The notes under the pieces: model-generated
What the model saw: only the letters and a program-made list of their open reading frames with translations
Told to the model about the DNA's origin: nothing
Database searches by the model: none
Translations under genes and position numbers: made by a program
Assembly: GCF_023277115.1 (NCBI RefSeq)
Contig: NZ_JALQCS010000001.1
Location: 1,172,001-1,236,000, forward strand
Direction: 5' to 3'
DNA length: 64,000 bases
Origin: Acidithiobacillus acidisediminis
Lineage (GTDB): Bacteria; Pseudomonadota; Gammaproteobacteria; Acidithiobacillales; Acidithiobacillaceae
Part shown: positions 3,992 through 23,469 of the stretch, in pieces
How the letters are laid out: each line of letters opens with the position of its first letter
How positions within the stretch are numbered: position 1 is the first letter of the stretch

Positions 3992-5299
3992 ATGACACGA
4001 AAGGGAGCCATGAGGGCAGCGGCATTGACTGCCTCTCTTACATTTTTTGCCAGTCCCTGGGCCTGGGCGGATGCTGCACCCCCTTTCAAAGGCGGGGATA
4101 CGGCCTGGATGCTGACCTCTACCGCGCTAGTCCTCCTGATGACCATCCCGGGTTTGGCCCTATTTTACGGTGGCATGGTTCGGCGCAAAAACGTTTTGGC
4201 GACAGCGGCACAAAGCTTTGCAGTAACCGCATTGATCTCGGTATTGTGGATGTTCTTTGGCTACTCACTAGCCTTCACGCCGGGGAATGCCTTTATTGGT
4301 GGCACCAGTCGATTCTTTTTGCAGGGCTTGGGGTTAGACAGCTTCAATCCACTTGCACCGACAATCCCGGAATCGGTCTACATGACCTTTCAGATGACCT
4401 TTGCCATCATTACCCCAGCCCTCATCGTCGGCGCCTTTGCGGAGCGGATGAAGTTCTCTGCCTTGCTGTGGTTCACGGGTCTATGGTCGCTACTGGTCTA
4501 TGCTCCCATTGCGCACATGGTCTGGGGGCCGGGCGGCTGGCTCGGCGGCGACGGCGTCCTCGATTATGCCGGTGGCACGGTGGTGCACATCAATGCCGGT
4601 ATTGCGGGTCTGGTCGCGGCCTTGGTGATCGGCAAGCGCGTTGGTTATCGGCATGATGTGATGCATCCGAGCAATCTTCTTTTCACCTTGATGGGGGCAG
4701 CGATGCTCTGGGTCGGTTGGTTTGGCTTCAATGCCGGTTCTGCGGTGGCAGCGAGTGATCGTGCGGGTATGGCGATGGCGGTGACGCAGATCGCAACAGC
4801 GGCAGCGGCGCTTGCTTGGACCTTTGTCGAGTGGTGGGCGCGCGGCAAGCCGACGGTGCTCGGGATGAGCTCGGGCGCGGTGGCGGGTCTGGTGGCTATC
4901 ACCCCCGCCTCAGGCTTTGTCGGGCCCGTGGGCAGCTTGTGGATCGGCATTGCGGCTGGCGTCGGTTGTTTCTGGGCCTCGGTGTATGTGAAGAACTGGC
5001 TGAATTACGATGACTCTTTGGATGCCTTTGGCGTCCATGCGGTAGGCGGCATAATTGGGGCGCTGCTGACGGGGGTCTTTGCCGTGGCGGCGATCGGTGG
5101 CACGGCAGGGGTGCTGGAAGGCAATCTGCACCAGTTGTGGATTCAGGCAACGGGTGTCGGGATCACGATCGCCTATGATGCGGTGGTGAGCTGGATTCTG
5201 CTGAAGTTGATCGACTGGACCGTCGGCCTGCGCGTGAGCGAGGACGCGGAACGCGAGGGCTTGGATGTCAGCCAGCACGGGGAGCAGCTCTATATGTAA
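3992..5299 (+). CDS. amt: Ammonium transporter (Amt/MEP/Rh family), first of two copies
   Basis: Inner-membrane NH4+/NH3 channel of 435 aa. A Sec signal peptide with a cleavage-like ASPWAWADA site near residue 27 precedes the Amt core, as in E. coli AmtB. The core starts [36 protein letters not shown], whose pore-helix and loop features are all family typical; [17 protein letters not shown] and [16 protein letters not shown] carry the twin pore histidines. AAGGAG precedes ATG 3992. It differs from the copy at 19642 in having a signal peptide and no adjacent PII gene. The sigma-54/NtrC elements upstream indicate induction under nitrogen limitation. A terminator follows and then an NtrC-controlled porin. 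Confidence 0.95.
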
Positions 5300-14769: not shown

Positions 14770-15861
14770 GTGATTCCGATCAAACGTTCGAAAAAAAAAC
14801 CTGCGGCTCCAGATCTGCTGGCCACTCTGGATGGGCTGGATGCGGCCGTATTACTTTTGTCGCTGGAGGGAGAGATTGTCTACCTCAATTCCAGCGCCGA
14901 AAATCTGCTGCAAATCAGTGCCAGTGTTTGTCTTGGAGAGCGCCTGGAATCCTTCTGTGCAACCCTGGCGGACGAAAGTCTGGCGACCATTCTCCAGGAC
15001 GCTCGCCGTGCCGGGACGGTGGTGAGCCGTCATGCCCTGGCTCTCCGTGTGGCAGATGGTGGTCGCGTGGTCGTGGACCTGCTCTGCAATGGCCTGAATA
15101 CGGGGAGTCATTGGGTGCTGGAACTGCGACCCGTGGAGGCCTCCCTGCGTCGGGTAGAAGAGGAAATGCAAGACCGAGTCTTTGAAGCGGCGCAAGAAAT
15201 GCTTGCTGGCCTGGCGCACGAAATCAAGAATCCTCTGGGAGGCTTGCGTGGTGCAGCGCAACTGTTAGAGAGAGAACTACCCACGCCGGAGCTGCAGGAA
15301 TACACCCGTATCATTTTGCATGAAGTGGATCGCCTGCGGCGTCTGGTCGACCGCTTGCGGGGTGACAAGGCAGCACCACAAAGGCGCATGGTGAATATTC
15401 ATGAAGTACTGGAACATGTGCGCCGTCTACTACAGGTGAACTTGCCCACGGGAGTGGCGCTGCGCTTTGATTACGATCTATCGATACCGGAATTCCAGGC
15501 GGATCCAGAGCAACTGGTGCAAGTGTTTCTGAATCTTTTGCGGAATGCCCGTCAAGCCTTGGCCGGCCAGGGAAATATCCTCATCCGCACCCGTGTCGAG
15601 CGCTTTGTGAATCTGCAGCAGCGCCTGTATCGCCTGGTATTGCGCGTAGACATTGCCGATGACGGTCCGGGCATCCCCGAGGAGCTGTTACCGCGCATTT
15701 TCTTGCCCCTGGTGACCAGCCGTGCCGAGGGGATGGGGATGGGTTTGGCGATTGTCCAGAACCTGGTACGCGCCCACGGTGGTACGGTGCATTGTCGCTC
15801 CGTGCCGGGAGATACGGTCTTCTCCATACGCTTGCCTTTGTCTGATGGAGGTATCGCATGA
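14770..15861 (+). CDS. ntrB: Nitrogen regulation sensor histidine kinase NtrB (GlnL)
   Basis: Soluble 363-aa kinase/phosphatase that phosphorylates NtrC when nitrogen is scarce and is controlled by PII. A PAS-like domain spans about residues 15-125. His150 lies in AGLAHEIKNPLGGLRGAAQL, the HisKA box. ATPase motifs are NLLRNARQAL (N box), DDGPGIPEELLPRIFLPLVTSR (G1/F box) and GMGMGLAIVQNLV (G2). The start is GTG 14770 with GGGAAG about 6 nt ahead. It overlaps ntrC by four bases (ATGA), so the two products are coupled. No membrane segments are seen, as expected for NtrB. Confidence 0.96.
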   Translation: MIPIKRSKKKPAAPDLLATLDGLDAAVLLLSLEGEIVYLNSSAENLLQISASVCLGERLESFCATLADESLATILQDARRAGTVVSRHALALRVADGGRVVVDLLCNGLNTGSHWVLELRPVEASLRRVEEEMQDRVFEAAQEMLAGLAHEIKNPLGGLRGAAQLLERELPTPELQEYTRIILHEVDRLRRLVDRLRGDKAAPQRRMVNIHEVLEHVRRLLQVNLPTGVALRFDYDLSIPEFQADPEQLVQVFLNLLRNARQALAGQGNILIRTRVERFVNLQQRLYRLVLRVDIADDGPGIPEELLPRIFLPLVTSRAEGMGMGLAIVQNLVRAHGGTVHCRSVPGDTVFSIRLPLSDGGIA

Positions 15862-17306
15862 ATTCGGCAGTCTGGGTCATCGACGATGATCCTTCGATAC
15901 GCTGGGTGTTGGAAAAGGCCTTGCAAAAGGCAGAGATTTCGGTGCGCAGTTTTGCTGACGCCGACCTCGCCCTGCGTGCCATGGGACGCGAACGGCCGGC
16001 CGCGGTAATCAGTGACTTGCGTATGCCCGGCCTCGATGGTCTGGGATTCTTGCAGGAGATTCAGCAGCGCCATCCGCAGCTACCTGTCATCATCATCACC
16101 GCGCATTCGGACCTGGAAAATGCCGTGGCCGCCTTTCAAGGTGGAGCCTTTGAGTACCTCGCCAAGCCCTTTGACATTGATGATGCGGTTGCTTTGGTGC
16201 AACGTGCCCTGACGGTGGAAGCGGCTCATGCCAGCGAACCGGATGCAGGATTTGACCGGCGCGATACGGAAATTATCGGGGAATCACCGGCGATGCAGGA
16301 GGTGTACCGGGCGATTGGGCGTCTCTCGCGCTCCAGCATCAATGTCCTGATCTTGGGGGAGTCGGGTTCCGGCAAGGAGCTGGTGGCCCGGGCGCTGCAT
16401 CGCCATAGTCCCCGCGCCAGTGGCCCGTTCGTCGCCATCAATACCGCCGCGATTCCCGCAGAACTCCTGGAATCCGAGTTGTTCGGGCATGAAAAGGGCG
16501 CCTTCACGGGCGCGGTGCAGATGCGTAAGGGCCGTTTTGAGCAGGCCACGGGTGGTACCCTGTTTCTCGACGAAATTGGCGATATGCCTGCCGCCCTGCA
16601 AACCCGGCTGTTGCGGGTCTTATCTGATGGTACCTACTACCGGGTAGGTGGACACGCATCCATCCGCGCCGACGTCCGGATCCTGGCGGCGACGCACCAG
16701 GACTTGCCGGCCAAGGTGCGGGATGGCAGTTTCCGCGAGGATCTCTATCACCGCCTGAATGTGATTTCTGTCCATATTCCCCCCCTGCGGGAACGCCGTT
16801 CCGATATTCCGCGGCTGGCGCGCTATTTCCTTCATCGCGCCGCCGAAAATCTTGGGGTAGAAGTCCGTAGTTTGAGTCCCGAGGCCGATGCACGCATGCG
16901 CGCTTGGTCTTGGCCGGGGAATGTGCGGCAGCTGGAAAATACCTGCCGCTGGATTACTGTGATGGCGCCCAGTCAGCGCGTGGAGCTGGGCGATTTGCCG
17001 GCCGAACTTCTTGCCGACAGTGCTACGGACGAAGGAATTTCCGAGACGCATTCTCCGGCTGCGGAATCTAGTGCAGGGCCAGCAGTCGTGATGGCAGATT
17101 GGCGTCAACTGCTATTAAAGGAGGCAGAAGAACGCCTCCATGCTGGTGATAGTGGGGTGCTGGATGCCTTGTTGCCAGACTTCGAGCGTGTGCTGCTGCA
17201 AGCCGCCCTCAACGCGAGCCGTGGACATAAGCAAGTGGCGGCGGAACGCCTGGGTTGGGGGCGGAATACGATCGCCCGCAAGATGCGTTCTCTTGGGATG
17301 GAATGA
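15858..17306 (+). CDS. ntrC: Nitrogen regulation response regulator NtrC (GlnG, NRI)
   Basis: 482-aa enhancer-binding activator of sigma-54 RNA polymerase. The receiver domain has phosphoacceptor Asp53 in ISDLRMPGLDG. The AAA+ domain carries the Walker A loop GESGSGKELVARALH, the sigma-54 contact loop EKGAFTGAVQ and GGTLFLDEIGD. The C-terminal Fis-type helix-turn-helix (GHKQVAAERLGWGRNTIARK) is nearly identical to the enterobacterial NtrC pattern, which distinguishes it from NtrX. Dyads matching its binding site occur upstream of amt, the porin, ntrBC, glnA and glnK in this same window. Confidence 0.97.
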   Translation: MNSAVWVIDDDPSIRWVLEKALQKAEISVRSFADADLALRAMGRERPAAVISDLRMPGLDGLGFLQEIQQRHPQLPVIIITAHSDLENAVAAFQGGAFEYLAKPFDIDDAVALVQRALTVEAAHASEPDAGFDRRDTEIIGESPAMQEVYRAIGRLSRSSINVLILGESGSGKELVARALHRHSPRASGPFVAINTAAIPAELLESELFGHEKGAFTGAVQMRKGRFEQATGGTLFLDEIGDMPAALQTRLLRVLSDGTYYRVGGHASIRADVRILAATHQDLPAKVRDGSFREDLYHRLNVISVHIPPLRERRSDIPRLARYFLHRAAENLGVEVRSLSPEADARMRAWSWPGNVRQLENTCRWITVMAPSQRVELGDLPAELLADSATDEGISETHSPAAESSAGPAVVMADWRQLLLKEAEERLHAGDSGVLDALLPDFERVLLQAALNASRGHKQVAAERLGWGRNTIARKMRSLGME

Positions 17307-17366: not shown

Positions 17367-18782
17367 TCAAAGACTGTAATACATCTGATATTCGACCGGG
17401 TGGGTGGTGACGCGCAGGGCCTGAACTTCGGCCCACTTCACCTCCAGATAGCCTGCCAGCCAGTCGGGGGTAAAGACCCCGCCCTTCATCAAGAACTCAT
17501 GATCGGCCTCCAGGGCACGCAGGGCCTCTTCCAAGGAAGCGGCCACGCCGGGGATCTGCTCCTGCTCTTCCGCCGGTAGGTCATAGAGGTTCTTGTCCAT
17601 GGCATCTCCAGGGTGGATCTTGTTCTGGATGCCATCCAGGCCCGCCATCATCATCGCCGCAAAGGCCAGATAGGGGTTGGCGGTGGAGTCGGGGAAACGC
17701 ACCTCGATGCGCCGCGCCTTGGGATTGCTCACATAGGGGATGCGGATGGAGGCAGAGCGGTTCTTGGCCGAGTAGGCGAGCAGCACCGGGGCCTCGAAAT
17801 GGGGCACCAAGCGCTTGTAGCTGTTGGTGCTGGGGTTGGTCAGGGCATTGATGGCCTTGGCGTGCTTGATGATGCCGCCGATGTAGTACAGGGCCAGCTC
17901 GGACAGGCCACCGTAGGCGTCACCGGTAAACAGGTTCTTGCCGTCCTTGGCCAGGGACTGATGCACGTGCATGCCGCTGCCGTTGTCACCAACAATGGGC
18001 TTGGGCATGAAGGTGGCGGTCTGCCCATAGGCGGCGGCGACGTTGTGGATTACGTATTTGAGGATCTGCACCTCATCGGCCTTGCGGGTGAGGGTGTTGA
18101 AGCTGACACCGATCTCATGCTGGCCAGCAGTGGCGACTTCGTGATGGTGCACCTCGACGGTCAGACCCATCTCTTCCAGGGCCAGGCACATGGCCGAACG
18201 CAGGTCTTGGGCGGAGTCGACGGGGGGCACGGGGAAGTAGCCGCCCTTGACGCCCGGGCGATGGCCCATGTTGCCGGACTCGTATTCCTTGCCCGAGTTC
18301 CAGGCAGCCTCTTCGGCATCCACCTTGTAGCCACAGCCACTCATATCGATGTGCCAGGTGACGGAATCAAAGACGAAGAATTCATTCTCGGGGCCAAAGT
18401 AGGCGGTATCGGCAATGCCCGTACTCTTCAGATAGGCCTCGGCACGCTTGGCCACGGAGCGGGGGTCGCGCTCATAGCCCTGGCCGGTGGCGGGCTCGAT
18501 GACGTCGCAACGGATGTTGAGGGTGACCTCGTCGGTAAAGGGGTCCAGCACCGCGCTCTCCGCCTCGGGCATGAGGATCATGTCCGACTCGTTGATACCC
18601 TTCCAGCCGGTAATGGAGGAGCCATCGAACATCTTGCCTTCGACAAAGGTCTTTTCTTCGATGGTGTGGGCAGGCACCGAGACATGCTGCTCCTTGCCCT
18701 TGGTGTCCGTAAAACGGAAATCAATGAACTTTACGTCTTTGTCTTGAATGAGTTGTAAAACTTCTGCTGGGCTCAACCCCAT
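17367..18782 (-). CDS. glnA: Glutamine synthetase type I
   Basis: Dodecameric enzyme making glutamine from glutamate, ammonia and ATP; 471 aa. Typical GSI motifs are seen: DLRFTDTKG-like N-terminal strand ([17 protein letters not shown]), [59 protein letters not shown] and NRSASIRIP. The adenylylation loop DKNLYDLP near residue 398 is present, so activity is likely set by GlnE. ATG 18782 is fixed by GAGGAG upstream and family length; the open frame to 18929 overlaps the promoter. The sigma-54 promoter and two NtrC dyads upstream are shared with the divergent glnK operon. Confidence 0.98.
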
Positions 18783-18824
18783 GTGTCGCACTCCTCGGTT
18801 CTGTGGATTCTCCCTGTAGGAGCA

Positions 18825-18840
18825 AGCAGATTGTGTGCCA
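18825..18840 (-). promoter_or_regulatory. Sigma-54 promoter of glnA
   Basis: On the minus strand TGGCACACAATCTGCT has GG (18839-18838), 10 nt, GC (18827-18826). Predicted start about 18814, 32 nt before the ATG. Confidence 0.8.
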
Positions 18841-18880
18841 TCCAAAGTGCGCAGCAATTTCGCGACGGACAGCCCTTTGA

Positions 18881-18928
18881 TATCCCAAAATAGTGCAAAA
18901 CAGGACATGATCGCATCATTATAGTGCA
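18881..18928. promoter_or_regulatory. Paired NtrC sites in the glnA-glnK intergenic region
   Basis: Read on the minus strand, TGCACTATAATGATGCG (18928-18912) is a good dyad, and TGCACTATTTTGGGATA (18897-18881) keeps one perfect half. Centres are 31 bp apart, about three helical turns, at roughly -106 and -75 from the glnA start and -109 and -140 from the glnK-side start, so both operons can use them. Confidence 0.7.
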
Positions 18929-19002
18929 TAGCTTGGAAAGAACGCTTATTTATTGAACATTATTGATTATTTAAGATATTGATTATAAAACATAAATTGT
19001 CA

Positions 19003-19018
19003 TGGCATAAATTCTGCA
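19003..19018 (+). promoter_or_regulatory. Sigma-54 promoter of orf60-glnK-amtB
   Basis: TGGCATAAATTCTGCA has GG (19004-19005), 10 nt, GC (19016-19017). Predicted start about 19029, directly ahead of a strong AGGAGGTAA at 19051. The DNA just upstream (18945-19000) is strikingly AT-rich, as expected for a bendable enhancer spacer. Confidence 0.8.
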
Positions 19019-19064
19019 ATGGCGGCCTCAGCTTTCCACAACCTACTGACAGGAGGTAACCGCA

Positions 19065-19590
<526 letters not shown>

Positions 19591-19641: not shown

Positions 19642-20946
19642 ATGTCTGTGTCCTGGTTAAATACCGGTGACAATGCCTGGCAGCTTACGGCGGCAACCAT
19701 CGTCGGCCTGCAGAGTGTTCCCGGGCTTGTCGTGCTCTATGCTGGCATTGTCAAGAAAAAATGGGCGGTAAATTCCGCGTTCATGGCATTTTATGCGTTC
19801 GCAGCGGTGCTGATTGCTTGGGTGCTCTGGGCCTACAATATGGGCTTTGGGCATGAATGGTTCCCCTTCGTGGGTCTGCCACATCCCATCATTAGTATGC
19901 AGGATGAACTCACCCAGGCGTTGTTGCCGACATCGAACACCACGGCTGCTTTTCCCATGTCTACCATGGTGTATTTTCAGTTCGTTTTTGCAGCGATCAC
20001 CTTGGTGATCATGGCGGGTGCTTTTCTTGGGCGGATGAGCTTCAAGGCGTGGATGATTTTCGTGCCCCTATGGCTCACCTTTTCCTATACCGTGGGTGCC
20101 TTCAGCCTCTGGGGTGGTGGTTTTCTTTCCACCTTGGGAGTCATTGACTACTCCGGTGGTTATGTGATCCATCTCTCCGCGGGTATCGCTGGTTTTGTCG
20201 GTGCTGCAGTGATCGGTCCGCGTTTGGCTCGTGATCGGGAAAATTTTCAGCCCAACAACGTGCTGCTGATGTTGGTGGGTGCCGGTATCCTCTGGCTGGG
20301 CTGGAATGGTTTCAACGGCGGCGATCCCTATGCTGCTAGCCGTGACGCTGGTGCCGCGGTGCTCAATACCAATCTGACCACGGCAGTGAGTGTCATTGTC
20401 TGGACCATCATGGATATCTTCTACTTCAAGAAGCCTTCGGTAATCGGTGCGGTGCAGGGCATGATCACCGGCCTTGTCGCCATCACTCCGGCAGCGGGTG
20501 TAGTGGACGGCTGGGGCGCCATTGCCATCGGTATCGCTTCCGGTATCATCCCGTGGATCAGTATGAACATCGTCGGCAAGACGGCGTTATTCCGTAAGGT
20601 GGACGACACCCTGGGCGTATTCCACACCCACGCGGTGGCGGGCGTGCTCGGCGGTATCATGGTCGGCATCTTTGCAACTAAGGAGGGTTGCGCAGCCTTT
20701 GCGTTGACCACTCCTGGCGGAGCGATTGATGGAAACTGGCATCAGGTCTGGTTGCAGATCATCGGTGCGGCGTTCATTATCGGTTTGAACATCGTTGTTA
20801 CCTACGTCCTGCTGAAGCTCATCAGCTTGGTAGTTCCGCTGCGCATGAGTGAGGAGGAGCTCATGGTGGGTGATGATGCGGTCCATGGTGAAGAGGCCTA
20901 TGCCTTCTTTGGCGAAGGGGAACGTCATCCGGTGCTCGGCGACTAA
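19642..20946 (+). CDS. amtB: Ammonium transporter AmtB, PII-linked copy
   Basis: 434-aa Amt channel co-transcribed with glnK. It lacks a cleavable signal peptide and begins within the first core helix ([29 protein letters not shown]). Pore-family blocks include [20 protein letters not shown] and [14 protein letters not shown], the two pore His regions. It differs clearly from the amt copy at 3992 (FYGG versus LYAG in the first helix), so the two are paralogues rather than a recent duplication. AAAGGAGAAG precedes ATG 19642. The cytoplasmic tail is acidic and longer than usual ([21 protein letters not shown]), which may matter for GlnK docking. Confidence 0.96.
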
Positions 20947-20971: not shown

Positions 20972-20999
20972 AACGGCGGCCTCCGGGCCGCCGTTTGTA
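20972..20999 (+). terminator. Terminator-like hairpin after amtB
   Basis: AACGGCGGCC / GGCCGCCGTT is a 10-bp stem with a TCCG loop, followed by TTGT. The T-run is weak, so readthrough into the GATase-PII pair 20 nt downstream is plausible. Confidence 0.6.
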
Positions 21000-21018: not shown

Positions 21019-21741
21019 ATGACAGCGATTTTGGTTTTGCAACATCATCCCGATGAGGGGCTTGCAACCCTGGCTACCTTGTTGGCGGCCCGTGGCCACG
21101 CGGTTGATCTGCGGAAACTCTATCAGGGCGATTCGCTGCCAGGCAGCATGATTGCTCATGCAGCATTGATTCTGATGGGCGGCCCGATGAGTGTGTATGA
21201 CGAAGCGGAGTATCCCTGGTTAGCCAGAGAGAAGAGCTTGATTCGTGCCGCCGCTCGGGATGGATGCCCTATTTTGGGGCATTGTCTTGGCGCGCAACTC
21301 ATCACTGTTGCCCTCGGTGGAAAGGTGGAAAGCAATCCTTCGGGATTGGAGCTGGGTTGGTGGCCGGTGTCCTTGACCGCAGCGGGGCAGATTTATTGGC
21401 CGGAGATGCGGCGGGAATTCCCCCTATTTCATTGGCATGGCGAACACTGCGTGACGCTTCCCGCCGGTGCAGATGTCTTGGCGCTGAATGATGCAACGCC
21501 AGTCCAGGCCTTTGCGATTGGTAGCCAGATTCTTGCCCTGCAGGCGCACCCGGAGGTGACGGCGGAACAGGTGCGGCAATGGAGCAGCGATAACGCCGCT
21601 GATCTGACAGCCGGAGGAGAGTATGTGCAAACAGTGCCAACCATGCTGCATGCCCTCGATCAGGCTTGCGCCCAACTTGCAGTCACGGCGACGGCGTTGT
21701 ACGGTCCCTGGCTAAAGCAGATCGAGAGACAAGATGGATGA
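21019..21741 (+). CDS. Class I glutamine amidotransferase-like protein
   Basis: Stand-alone 240-aa GATase resembling the GMP-synthase glutaminase domain. Catalytic elements are visible: nucleophile Cys in LGHCLGAQL and the His-x-Glu pair in LQAHPEVT; the oxyanion loop is LILMGGPMSVYDE. Such single-domain enzymes hydrolyse glutamine or gamma-glutamyl compounds, but no synthase partner is near. An AGAGAGAG site precedes ATG 21019. The stop codon overlaps the next gene's ATG (ATGA), tying it to a PII-like protein, which suggests its activity responds to nitrogen status. Substrate unknown. Confidence 0.85.
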   Translation: MTAILVLQHHPDEGLATLATLLAARGHAVDLRKLYQGDSLPGSMIAHAALILMGGPMSVYDEAEYPWLAREKSLIRAAARDGCPILGHCLGAQLITVALGGKVESNPSGLELGWWPVSLTAAGQIYWPEMRREFPLFHWHGEHCVTLPAGADVLALNDATPVQAFAIGSQILALQAHPEVTAEQVRQWSSDNAADLTAGGEYVQTVPTMLHALDQACAQLAVTATALYGPWLKQIERQDG

Positions 21742-22082
21742 GTAGCGCAAGCTCTTGGGTACGAATCACGGCGATCATTCGTCCACAGCGCATGGATCAG
21801 GTCTGTGACGCTCTTGCTGTGCTCGGAGTGAGTGGCGTGACGGTAATCGATGTAGACGGGATTGGCCAACAACTGGGCTATTCCACCTTACGCAGTGGCG
21901 CCTGGTATCAGTCGCGGAGCCATCCCAAGGTGCAGATTGAAACCGTCGTGGCAGAGGGGCAAGCCGGGCAGGTGCTTGCGCTGATTCGGGAGCAGGCCGC
22001 GACTGGCGAAATGGGCGATGGCAAGATGTGGATGGAGCCCGTTGTGGGTATTGTCGGGATTCGCGCGGAAGAAGAGGGCTGA
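21738..22082 (+). CDS. Divergent PII-family protein
   Basis: 114-aa PII homologue clearly different from the GlnK at 19252. Aligned by eye, it keeps the IIRPQRMDQVCDAL start, Gln44 (GlnK Gln39), Tyr57 at the Tyr51 position (SGAWYQSR), Lys64 (Lys58) and TGEMGDGKMW. It changes three ATP-pocket residues or neighbours: Arg38 to Gln, Lys40 to Leu, and Arg101 to Gly. So the fold and perhaps 2-oxoglutarate sensing remain, while nucleotide binding is probably altered. It is translationally coupled to a GATase gene and runs into a convergent amino-acid permease 4 nt away. It could be an accessory PII dedicated to one target. Confidence 0.85.
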   Translation: MSSASSWVRITAIIRPQRMDQVCDALAVLGVSGVTVIDVDGIGQQLGYSTLRSGAWYQSRSHPKVQIETVVAEGQAGQVLALIREQAATGEMGDGKMWMEPVVGIVGIRAEEEG

Positions 22083-22086
22083 TTTC

Positions 22087-23469
22087 CTACTCTACCGATG
22101 GCTGGAGCTGGTCGCTGATGATGGCCTGTAGCCGCGCCGGCTGAAAACGCGCCCAATATAGCCCCAAAGCCGTGCTGAACAGCACCATCGCCAGGAAGAA
22201 AACGATCGTTGCCCCAATTCTGCCGCTCGGGAAGGGAACCACGGTTCCGTAAAATACTGCACCCAACAACGGTAGACTGATGAGTGTGATGACTAAGCTG
22301 AGCCAGCGCAAGCTGACCCTGCTGCGGAAGAGATAGCGCAGAGCGGCGAGATTGCTCAAGGCGTAGAGTAGGACAAAGCCCAGCGCGGTGAAGGTGCCGA
22401 AGATATCGATCAGATCCAGAACCGAGGCGTGGGTCAACCAGAACAGCAGAATGCTCGCCAGCACCAAGGTGGCGAGTAAGCGCAATGCGGCAATGGGCGT
22501 GCCATAGCGCGGATGCTGCCGGGCCAGCGTTACCGGCAAGACGCGGTGGGCAGCCATGCTCAACAGAATACGGGAGATGCTGTTGAAAGTCGCAATACTC
22601 GCCGAGAAAGCGGCGGTCGCCATGGCGAGATCCACCAGGATGCCCAGCCAAGGTTCTCCCATCGCGCTCGCGATGGCATTCAGGGGTGTCGAAGCGTTGC
22701 CCAAGGGTTGTCCCAAACGTTGGAATGCTAGGGTCTCGGTGTAGGCCAGAAAAACGAAAAAGACGGCGACGAGAATCACTGCCCAGCGCATCATGCCCGG
22801 GATGGCTTCGGGTTTCTTTGCCTCCGCTGCCAAATTTCCGGCCGTCTCGAACCCGCCATAGGCGAGCAAGGACAGTACCAGGGCGCTGAGTAGGGAAGGG
22901 GGTTGCAGGTGTTGAAACTGCCATTGCTGCGGATCGCTGATGCCAAAATGGGCCAGGGTAAGGATGGCAATGAGGAGAATGCAAGCGATGGAGAACCACT
23001 CCACCCACAGTCCCCAGCGCGCCGAAATCTCCACCCCGCGCCGCGCCAACGAGAAGGCAATCGCCAGGGTAGCTAGGGCAAAGAGATCAAGCAGATGCGC
23101 GCTGCCAGACCAGATGCTGTGCACGGCAGTATCGAGGAAGAGACCACAGAGCAGTGGGGCACCGAGCAGGGCACCACCGTAACCCAGAATCATGGTGAAG
23201 CCCGCTACCAAGCCGGCGACCGGATGCAGTGCCTTGGCAAGATAAAAGAATAGTGAGCCGGGGGAAGGAAAATGCCGCGCCAGGATACCCAGTTGGATCG
23301 CGACCAGCCACATGACGATCCCGACCAGGGCATAAGCCAGCCAAGTGAAGGGGCCACCATGCGCGGCGACCAAGGCAATGGTCACGGCGGGCATGGCCGA
23401 GGGGGTGATATTGGCCACGGCATGGCCCCACACCTCGCGGGTGTCTACCCGCCGGGAAGCGCTGGTCAT
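22087..23469 (-). CDS. Amino-acid/polyamine permease (APC superfamily)
   Basis: 460-aa inner-membrane secondary transporter with about 12 hydrophobic helices. The N-terminal helix 1 region (WGHAVANITPSAMPAVTIALVAAHGG) and PSPGSLFFYLAKAL in helix 2-3 fit the APC fold, as does LAYGGFETAGNLAAEAKKPE after helix 5. The substrate cannot be read. The ATG at 23469 lies 8 nt after the pmbA stop with no convincing ribosome-binding site, so it is probably coupled to pmbA. It converges with the PII-like gene, a hint of nitrogen-related function only by location. Confidence 0.88.
   Translation of the reverse strand: MTSASRRVDTREVWGHAVANITPSAMPAVTIALVAAHGGPFTWLAYALVGIVMWLVAIQLGILARHFPSPGSLFFYLAKALHPVAGLVAGFTMILGYGGALLGAPLLCGLFLDTAVHSIWSGSAHLLDLFALATLAIAFSLARRGVEISARWGLWVEWFSIACILLIAILTLAHFGISDPQQWQFQHLQPPSLLSALVLSLLAYGGFETAGNLAAEAKKPEAIPGMMRWAVILVAVFFVFLAYTETLAFQRLGQPLGNASTPLNAIASAMGEPWLGILVDLAMATAAFSASIATFNSISRILLSMAAHRVLPVTLARQHPRYGTPIAALRLLATLVLASILLFWLTHASVLDLIDIFGTFTALGFVLLYALSNLAALRYLFRSRVSLRWLSLVITLISLPLLGAVFYGTVVPFPSGRIGATIVFFLAMVLFSTALGLYWARFQPARLQAIISDQLQPSVE

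Follow-up and report, generated by a model that had tools for sequence, protein, structure and literature searches.

PII proteins usually serve many targets, and we know of no described PII target of the class I (Cys-His-Glu) amidotransferase type. The glutaminase of NadE is of the nitrilase type, a different fold from that of class I amidotransferases, and DnfA of Dirammox is an AurF homologue. Among the described systems closest to the locus reported here, the action of PII on Amt has precedent in passages of PMC8395244, which name the 2-oxoglutarate ligand residues of PII and describe a T-loop arginine, printed as Arg41, that blocks the ammonium channel. Excerpts of PMC7196632 report that PII relieves the NAD+ inhibition of NadE and that 2-oxoglutarate hinders the complex, and part of PMC7646526 speculates on a docking of PII to the NadE glutaminase domain. 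The amidotransferase DnfC hydrolyses glutamine and glutamic acid gamma-hydroxamate, according to an excerpt of PMC11440038.

The window analyzed here is a stretch of 64,000 nucleotides from the acidophilic sulfur bacterium Acidithiobacillus acidisediminis, whose genome (G000) spans 2.81 Mb in four contigs. It contains a divergent PII paralogue, which we label PIIx, and an upstream amidotransferase partner, which we label GATase; both were followed through a family set of 29 Acidithiobacillaceae genomes, eight of them in the genus of the window. As in the PII-NadE(Gln) pair (glnB-nadE), a PII gene is paired with a glutamine-hydrolysing enzyme; the enzyme there is a NAD synthetase, whereas here a stand-alone class I amidotransferase goes with a divergent PII. 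The locus shares with GlnK-AmtB the gene neighbourhood, the PII family and the 2-oxoglutarate residues, but PIIx comes as an additional paralogue downstream of amtB, has neither Arg47 nor Arg101, and belongs to a separate clade. GATase is, like DnfC, stand-alone and tied to ammonia metabolism; DnfC, however, belongs to dnfABC, and no AurF-family (dnfA-type) gene adjoins the pair in the window. The same gene pair is found in A. caldus, in the glnK-amt-GATase-PII arrangement of mpAca1.1 and of the chromosome, annotated there by family names only. The earlier note on this DNA did not know the pairing as a described system, and the literature searched, with subscription papers mostly outside its reach, indeed yielded neither the PIIx-GATase pair nor any PII target among class I amidotransferases. 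Passages of the A. caldus literature on PII and amtB discuss amtB, a PII near a hup cluster or ammonium uptake, not the pair.

Organization of the locus

The order of genes in the window is ntrB-like gene, ntrC, glnA (minus strand), glnK, amtB, GATase, PIIx and a convergent permease:

14770..15861, plus strand: ntrB/glnL-like gene (position before ntrC; A. caldus order glnL-ntrC)
15858..17306, plus strand: ntrC (open reading frame; A. caldus orthologue annotated ntrC)
17367..18782, minus strand: glnA, glutamine synthetase (86% identical to the A. caldus gene annotated glnA; start picked by eye within a longer open reading frame, 17367-18929)
19252..19590, plus strand: glnK, canonical PII (profile; Arg38, Arg47, Tyr51, Arg101 and Arg103 present by sequence)
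19642..20946, plus strand: amtB, ammonium channel (PF00909, E 9.7e-88; TIGR00836 above cut-off)
20972..20995, plus strand: stable hairpin between amtB and GATase, weak T tail (fold -22 kcal/mol, z -4.2)
21019..21741, plus strand: GATase, stand-alone class I glutamine amidotransferase, 240 aa (ATG-TGA open reading frame, PF00117)
21738..22082, plus strand: PIIx, divergent third PII paralogue, 114 aa (ATG-TGA open reading frame, PF00543, own clade)
21738..21741, plus strand: ATGA overlap of 4 bases between GATase stop and PIIx start (sequence)
22087..23469, minus strand: APC-family amino-acid permease, convergent with PIIx (PF00324, E 4.7e-28; PF13520)

The earlier note had called GATase and PIIx translationally fused through a shared ATGA. 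The overlap stands, with correct coordinates, the GATase stop and the PIIx start sharing four bases at 21738-21741; the fusion does not, since these are two separate proteins whose stop and start overlap, which rules out a true GATase-PII fusion protein. The convergent amino-acid permease had been rightly recognized. The glnK-amtB genes directly upstream of the pair had been missed, and their presence changes the interpretation. The window also contains a second ammonium transporter gene (3992-5299; 37% identical to amtB), and its interval 18783-19251 is free of the porin-like gene found between glnA and glnK in G002, G003 and G007 (BBP2 in G007, the one scanned).

Six genomes of the genus, that of the window included, have a hairpin downstream of amtB, with folding energies between -17 and -23 kcal/mol. 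Upstream of GATase it ends in a weak T tail; in G004 and G005, where PIIx is the very next gene, the tail is a strong one of 6 to 8 T. The hairpin at 20972-20995, which a generic terminator scan of the window did not list, is a possible leaky terminator or attenuator; with such a structure after amtB, expression of GATase-PIIx may be partly uncoupled from that of glnK-amtB. Sigma-54-like sites are located before glnA (18825-18840, minus strand, one mismatch) and before glnK (19003-19018, plus strand, two mismatches); matches of this kind number 61 in the window against 42 expected, mildly above chance (reached by 1 of 100 shuffles).

Distribution of PIIx

We identified PIIx in seven of the 29 family genomes: six of the eight in the genus of the window (G000, G002, G003, G004, G005 and G007) and A. 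caldus (G013). The other five proteins of the genus are 73, 69, 69, 60 and 57% identical to that of the window, and the three A. caldus copies 47-48%. PIIx is absent from G006 (98% complete) and was not seen in G001 (69% complete). In the searches run, it was recognized in no genome outside these seven. A profile search in 369 genomes of the class, a set that holds only G000 and G010 of the family, gave 194 bits for the window and 107 for the next genome. A pattern-based species-level scan of 84,980 genomes kept 80 loci (from 130), four of which exceed 50% identity to PIIx; these four are records of G003, G007, G004 and G005. As the scan missed the carriers A. caldus and G002, its silence is not complete. 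A wide PII-GATase system was rejected: a close GATase beside PII was found at two of the 80 scan loci, both titled Acidithiobacillus, and two further loci have weak GATase matches approximately 2.4 and 5 kb from the PII. Viral carriage was also rejected, a viral contig scan having confirmed no relative.

The PIIx-GATase pair is real and kept in relatives. The order glnK-amtB-GATase-PIIx is found in the window, in G002, G003 and G007, and twice in A. caldus, which has two chromosomal copies of GATase-PIIx and a third on a plasmid. On the plasmid mpAca1.1, one extra small gene lies between amt and GATase; in one of the chromosomal copies (L034), GATase-PIIx is located behind a truncated amtB, without glnK. 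The A. caldus GATase is 39% identical to that of the window. G004 and G005 have glnK-amtB-PIIx without GATase in the operon, and a search for a GATase remnant in their amtB-PIIx gaps gave scattered short matches on both strands (best E-value 0.004), which are not convincing. Overall, glnK-amtB precedes PIIx at eight of nine PIIx loci. The junction between GATase and PIIx is a 4-base overlap in the window, a one-base overlap (TGATG) in G002 and G007, a 5-base gap in G003, and a 19-base overlap, as annotated, in A. caldus. Conservation of the pair in relatives, which the earlier note had proposed to check, was thus found for the most part, the two genes being adjacent in five of the seven PIIx genomes, and fails in the operons of G004 and G005.

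In the genome G010, a genus-mate of A. caldus, there is a remnant of GATase in which two TAG codons lie in frame (G010:C35:138046-138345). The sole PII match of this genome adjoins a nadE-like gene and only one amt match is present, therefore no glnK-amtB pair was seen.

PIIx, a divergent PII paralogue

PIIx matches the P-II family above the gathering score (PF00543, E 1.3e-19). PII proteins make up all 50 Foldseek matches listed, and the best solved-structure matches are canonical PII; the predicted model has a pLDDT of 77, low in the T-loop (GQQLGYSTLRSGAWYQSRSHPKV). Two NCBIfam models match PIIx, both below their curated cut-offs. A tree of 45 rows, with no CPII, SbtB or PstA rows among them, joins the seven PIIx rows in one clade (100/99) separate from the GlnK and GlnB of the family. 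Three of the 38 source loci (L057, L065, L067) yielded no row at the bit-score cut, and the L128 row, on the wrong strand, was dropped between alignments A3 and A4. Outside both clades and with Ser at position 47, PIIx is not a canonical GlnK or GlnB. In the genome of the window, glnB is paired with an upstream nadE-like gene (L046:6979-8960; nadE named by eye from its start).

The residues of PIIx are described here in E. coli PII numbering. The 2-oxoglutarate positions are kept in all seven genomes (residue 9 as R15, Gln39 as Q45, Lys58 as K64), and so is Tyr51 (Y57), as had been noticed for the window from its sequence; the window protein also keeps Thr29 and Gly87-Asp88-Gly89-Lys90. The reported loss of Arg38 (Q44 in the window) and Arg101 (G107) was likewise borne out and extends to relatives: Arg101 is lost in all seven genomes and Arg38 in six, A. 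caldus retaining Arg. Alignment A3 shows Arg103 in every PIIx row, though alignment A1 places Asp there for A. caldus. PIIx lacks the complete nucleotide-site arginine set 38, 101 and 103.

Three further positions, which the earlier note had not mentioned, depart from the canonical residues. Arg47, the AmtB-plugging residue of E. coli GlnK, is Ser in all seven genomes (S53 in the window), which argues against a classical AmtB plug; Glu50 is replaced by Trp (W56) and Phe55 by Ser (S61), again in all seven. Between the window and G004, 22/23 T-loop residues (43-65) are identical against 40/78 in the rest of the protein; the corresponding values are 22/23 and 37/78 for G005, and 17/23 and 31/78 for A. 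caldus. Conservation in the T-loop thus exceeds that in the body of PIIx, which makes a specific target likely. The gene is under purifying selection, with NG86 dN/dS of 0.06-0.26 in the 13 of 15 pairs with unsaturated dS (canonical GlnK: 0-0.03 in unsaturated pairs); where estimable, these values rule out a chance or decaying open reading frame. GlnD was found above cut-off in 27 of the 29 family genomes; as that of the window is among them, Tyr51 of PIIx could be uridylylated.

The amidotransferase

GATase was confirmed as a stand-alone class I amidotransferase (PF00117, E 7.5e-17; triad C89/H177/E179), and the Cys and His-x-Glu motifs are present in 36/36 homologues examined. Its AF2 model has a pLDDT of 95. 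The best PDB matches are, in order, 3m3p, 1o1y, 8khs (DnfC) and 3l7n, with the plant gamma-glutamyl peptidase lower among the structure matches; DnfC, the third-best, has a TM score of 0.85 at 32% identity. Because of these DnfC-type matches and the reported activity of DnfC, GATase is predicted to be, most likely, a glutaminase or gamma-glutamyl amide hydrolase.

Acidithiobacillaceae have AurF-family genes besides their DnfC-like GATases. Matches to AurF-family N-oxygenases (PF11583) were detected in 29/29 genomes, 28 of them above cut-off, against 1/14 controls, below cut-off. The sole match above cut-off in the genome of the window lies about 1 Mb from the pair (G000:C1:135153-135980). Dirammox was considered and set aside, since AurF-family genes in all 29 genomes do not track the GATase-PIIx pair.

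GATase with and without PIIx

In the sister genus (genomes labelled g2), seven genomes encode GATase beside amt genes without PIIx, arranged as glnK-amtB-GATase (G019, G022), as amtB-GAF/GGDEF/EAL-GATase (G024, G028) or as second amt-GGDEF/EAL-GATase (G011, G025, G026); the survey of GATase neighbourhoods ran without G008, G015, G016 and G017. These amt-linked enzymes, at glnK-amtB or a second amt, are 46-50% identical to that of the window and differ from it in having no PIIx and Phe, not Cys, at position 144 (rows aligned). The enzyme therefore joined amt loci before, or independently of, PIIx. The GATase neighbour is hidden by a contig end in G027 and G020, and in G009 a second amt, on the opposite strand, is close to GATase; no amt locus surrounds the GATases of G014, G018 (C175), G021 and G023 or another A. 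caldus copy. The amt locus of the sister genus also includes a PAS-SpoIIE gene, an antagonist-like gene (by eye), a second amt and a gene for a GAF-GGDEF-EAL protein (L191, L193, L200, L239), the last overlapping GATase by 4 bases in G024 and G028. A link of ammonium uptake to c-di-GMP is possible at this locus.

A tree that omits five distant rows (G021, G015, G023, and G018 twice) unites the GATases of PIIx genomes in one clade (99/90), which includes the distant A. caldus copy; when these five rows are kept, the A. caldus row falls in an unresolved fork and long branches meet. Clade GATases score at least 323 bits and all other GATase matches at most 292. Compared with 12 other rows of alignment A5, five clade GATases have in common D12, R32, C144, T160 and A176, and their A92 is also seen in G022, G014 and the other A. 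caldus copy. The clade GATase of G005 is on a different contig from PIIx, and a search for its neighbour in four other genomes found nothing; no closely related GATase was found anywhere in the G004 genome, which is 91% complete.

A clade GATase is thus present in 6/7 PIIx genomes against 0/22 others, 15 of the latter placed by trees and 7 by score or remnant only; the Fisher value of 1.5e-5 ignores relatedness and concerns two genera only. This clade-level co-occurrence supports the PIIx-GATase pair. GATase as a mere passenger is weakened by the tree, which places the unlinked G005 copy and the A. caldus copy in the PIIx clade. Outside the family, among 29 loci fetched from other families of the class (drawn from 89 other genomes with a GATase match, of 274 searched; some cut by contig ends), none had Amt or PII within up to 1.5 kb of GATase.

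Possible functions of the pair

The explanation that we favour, at somewhat less than even confidence, is that PIIx senses 2-oxoglutarate as a regulatory subunit dedicated to one enzyme, a DnfC-like gamma-glutamyl amide hydrolase encoded at the ammonium-uptake locus. The pair would be an addition, specific to this lineage, to a glnK-amtB locus that neighbours ntrC and glnA. GATase, of the 3m3p/DnfC type, would split glutamine or another gamma-glutamyl amide into glutamate and ammonia (or an amine). PIIx, with its rebuilt T-loop, would be translated together with GATase and serve as its dissociable subunit, with binding and release set by 2-oxoglutarate and ATP/ADP in the manner of PII and NadE; glutamine would then be hydrolysed under nitrogen excess and saved under nitrogen shortage. 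We infer a shared message, catalytic activity, ligand binding, physical contact and the direction of control. Tight junctions and co-occurrence of the pair favour action of PIIx on the enzyme. The earlier suggestion of a direct controller of one enzyme is, however, only partly supported by these comparisons: the GATase clade tracks PIIx, but PIIx follows amtB without the enzyme in the operons of G004 and G005, and seven genomes of the sister genus have the enzyme beside amt genes and no PIIx.

AmtB/GlnK has to be taken seriously as another target. PIIx would then act on the ammonium channel, binding AmtB by a different T-loop or forming mixed trimers with GlnK that tune the AmtB block, and GATase would be a separate member of the ammonium locus. 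The presence of PIIx at glnK-amtB without the enzyme in two genomes, with T-loops 22/23 identical to that of the window, argues for such a target, as do the glnK-amtB genes before nearly every PIIx locus and the GATases at sister-genus amt loci without PIIx. Yet the substitutions at positions 47, 50 and 55 hold in every PIIx genome, a canonical GlnK is already present, and full-length AmtB is 86-96% identical to that of the window with or without PIIx in the genome, therefore giving no sign of adaptation to PIIx. We consider this explanation possible, although on the unlikely side. PIIx and GATase might also be bystanders, merely co-transcribed, with PIIx directed at another target such as glutamine synthetase regulation, NtrB or GAF/GGDEF proteins. 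The amt locus of the family is fluid, its PAS-SpoIIE, antagonist-like, second amt and GAF-GGDEF-EAL genes being present or absent; GATase overlaps a GAF-GGDEF-EAL gene in two sister-genus genomes; the pair is confined to two genera; and passages of PMC7646526 count GGDEF proteins and the GAF domain of NifA among the partners or docking sites of PII. The clade co-occurrence and the tight junctions in both genera speak against mere co-transcription, which we regard as improbable. Control of the convergent APC permease by PIIx seems very remote: the permease adjoins PIIx in five of the six PIIx genomes of the genus, but not in G005 nor at any of the three A. caldus loci, and convergent genes share no promoter.

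Implications for Acidithiobacillaceae

In its fullest form, the dedicated-subunit explanation would have a PII paralogue become the subunit of a Cys-His-Glu amidotransferase inside an ammonium-channel operon, with AmtB, GlnK, PIIx and the enzyme acting as one valve that returns glutamine amide nitrogen to ammonia at low 2-oxoglutarate; this we consider doubtful. A. caldus, a bioleaching species, is among the PIIx carriers, and ammonia is described as growth-limiting in biomining environments in an excerpt of PMC3826726. If bound to one amidotransferase, PIIx would show the passage from a general nitrogen sensor to a dedicated subunit, here with a modified nucleotide site and a T-loop that is both new and conserved, and a function would be suggested for a class of unassigned stand-alone amidotransferases.
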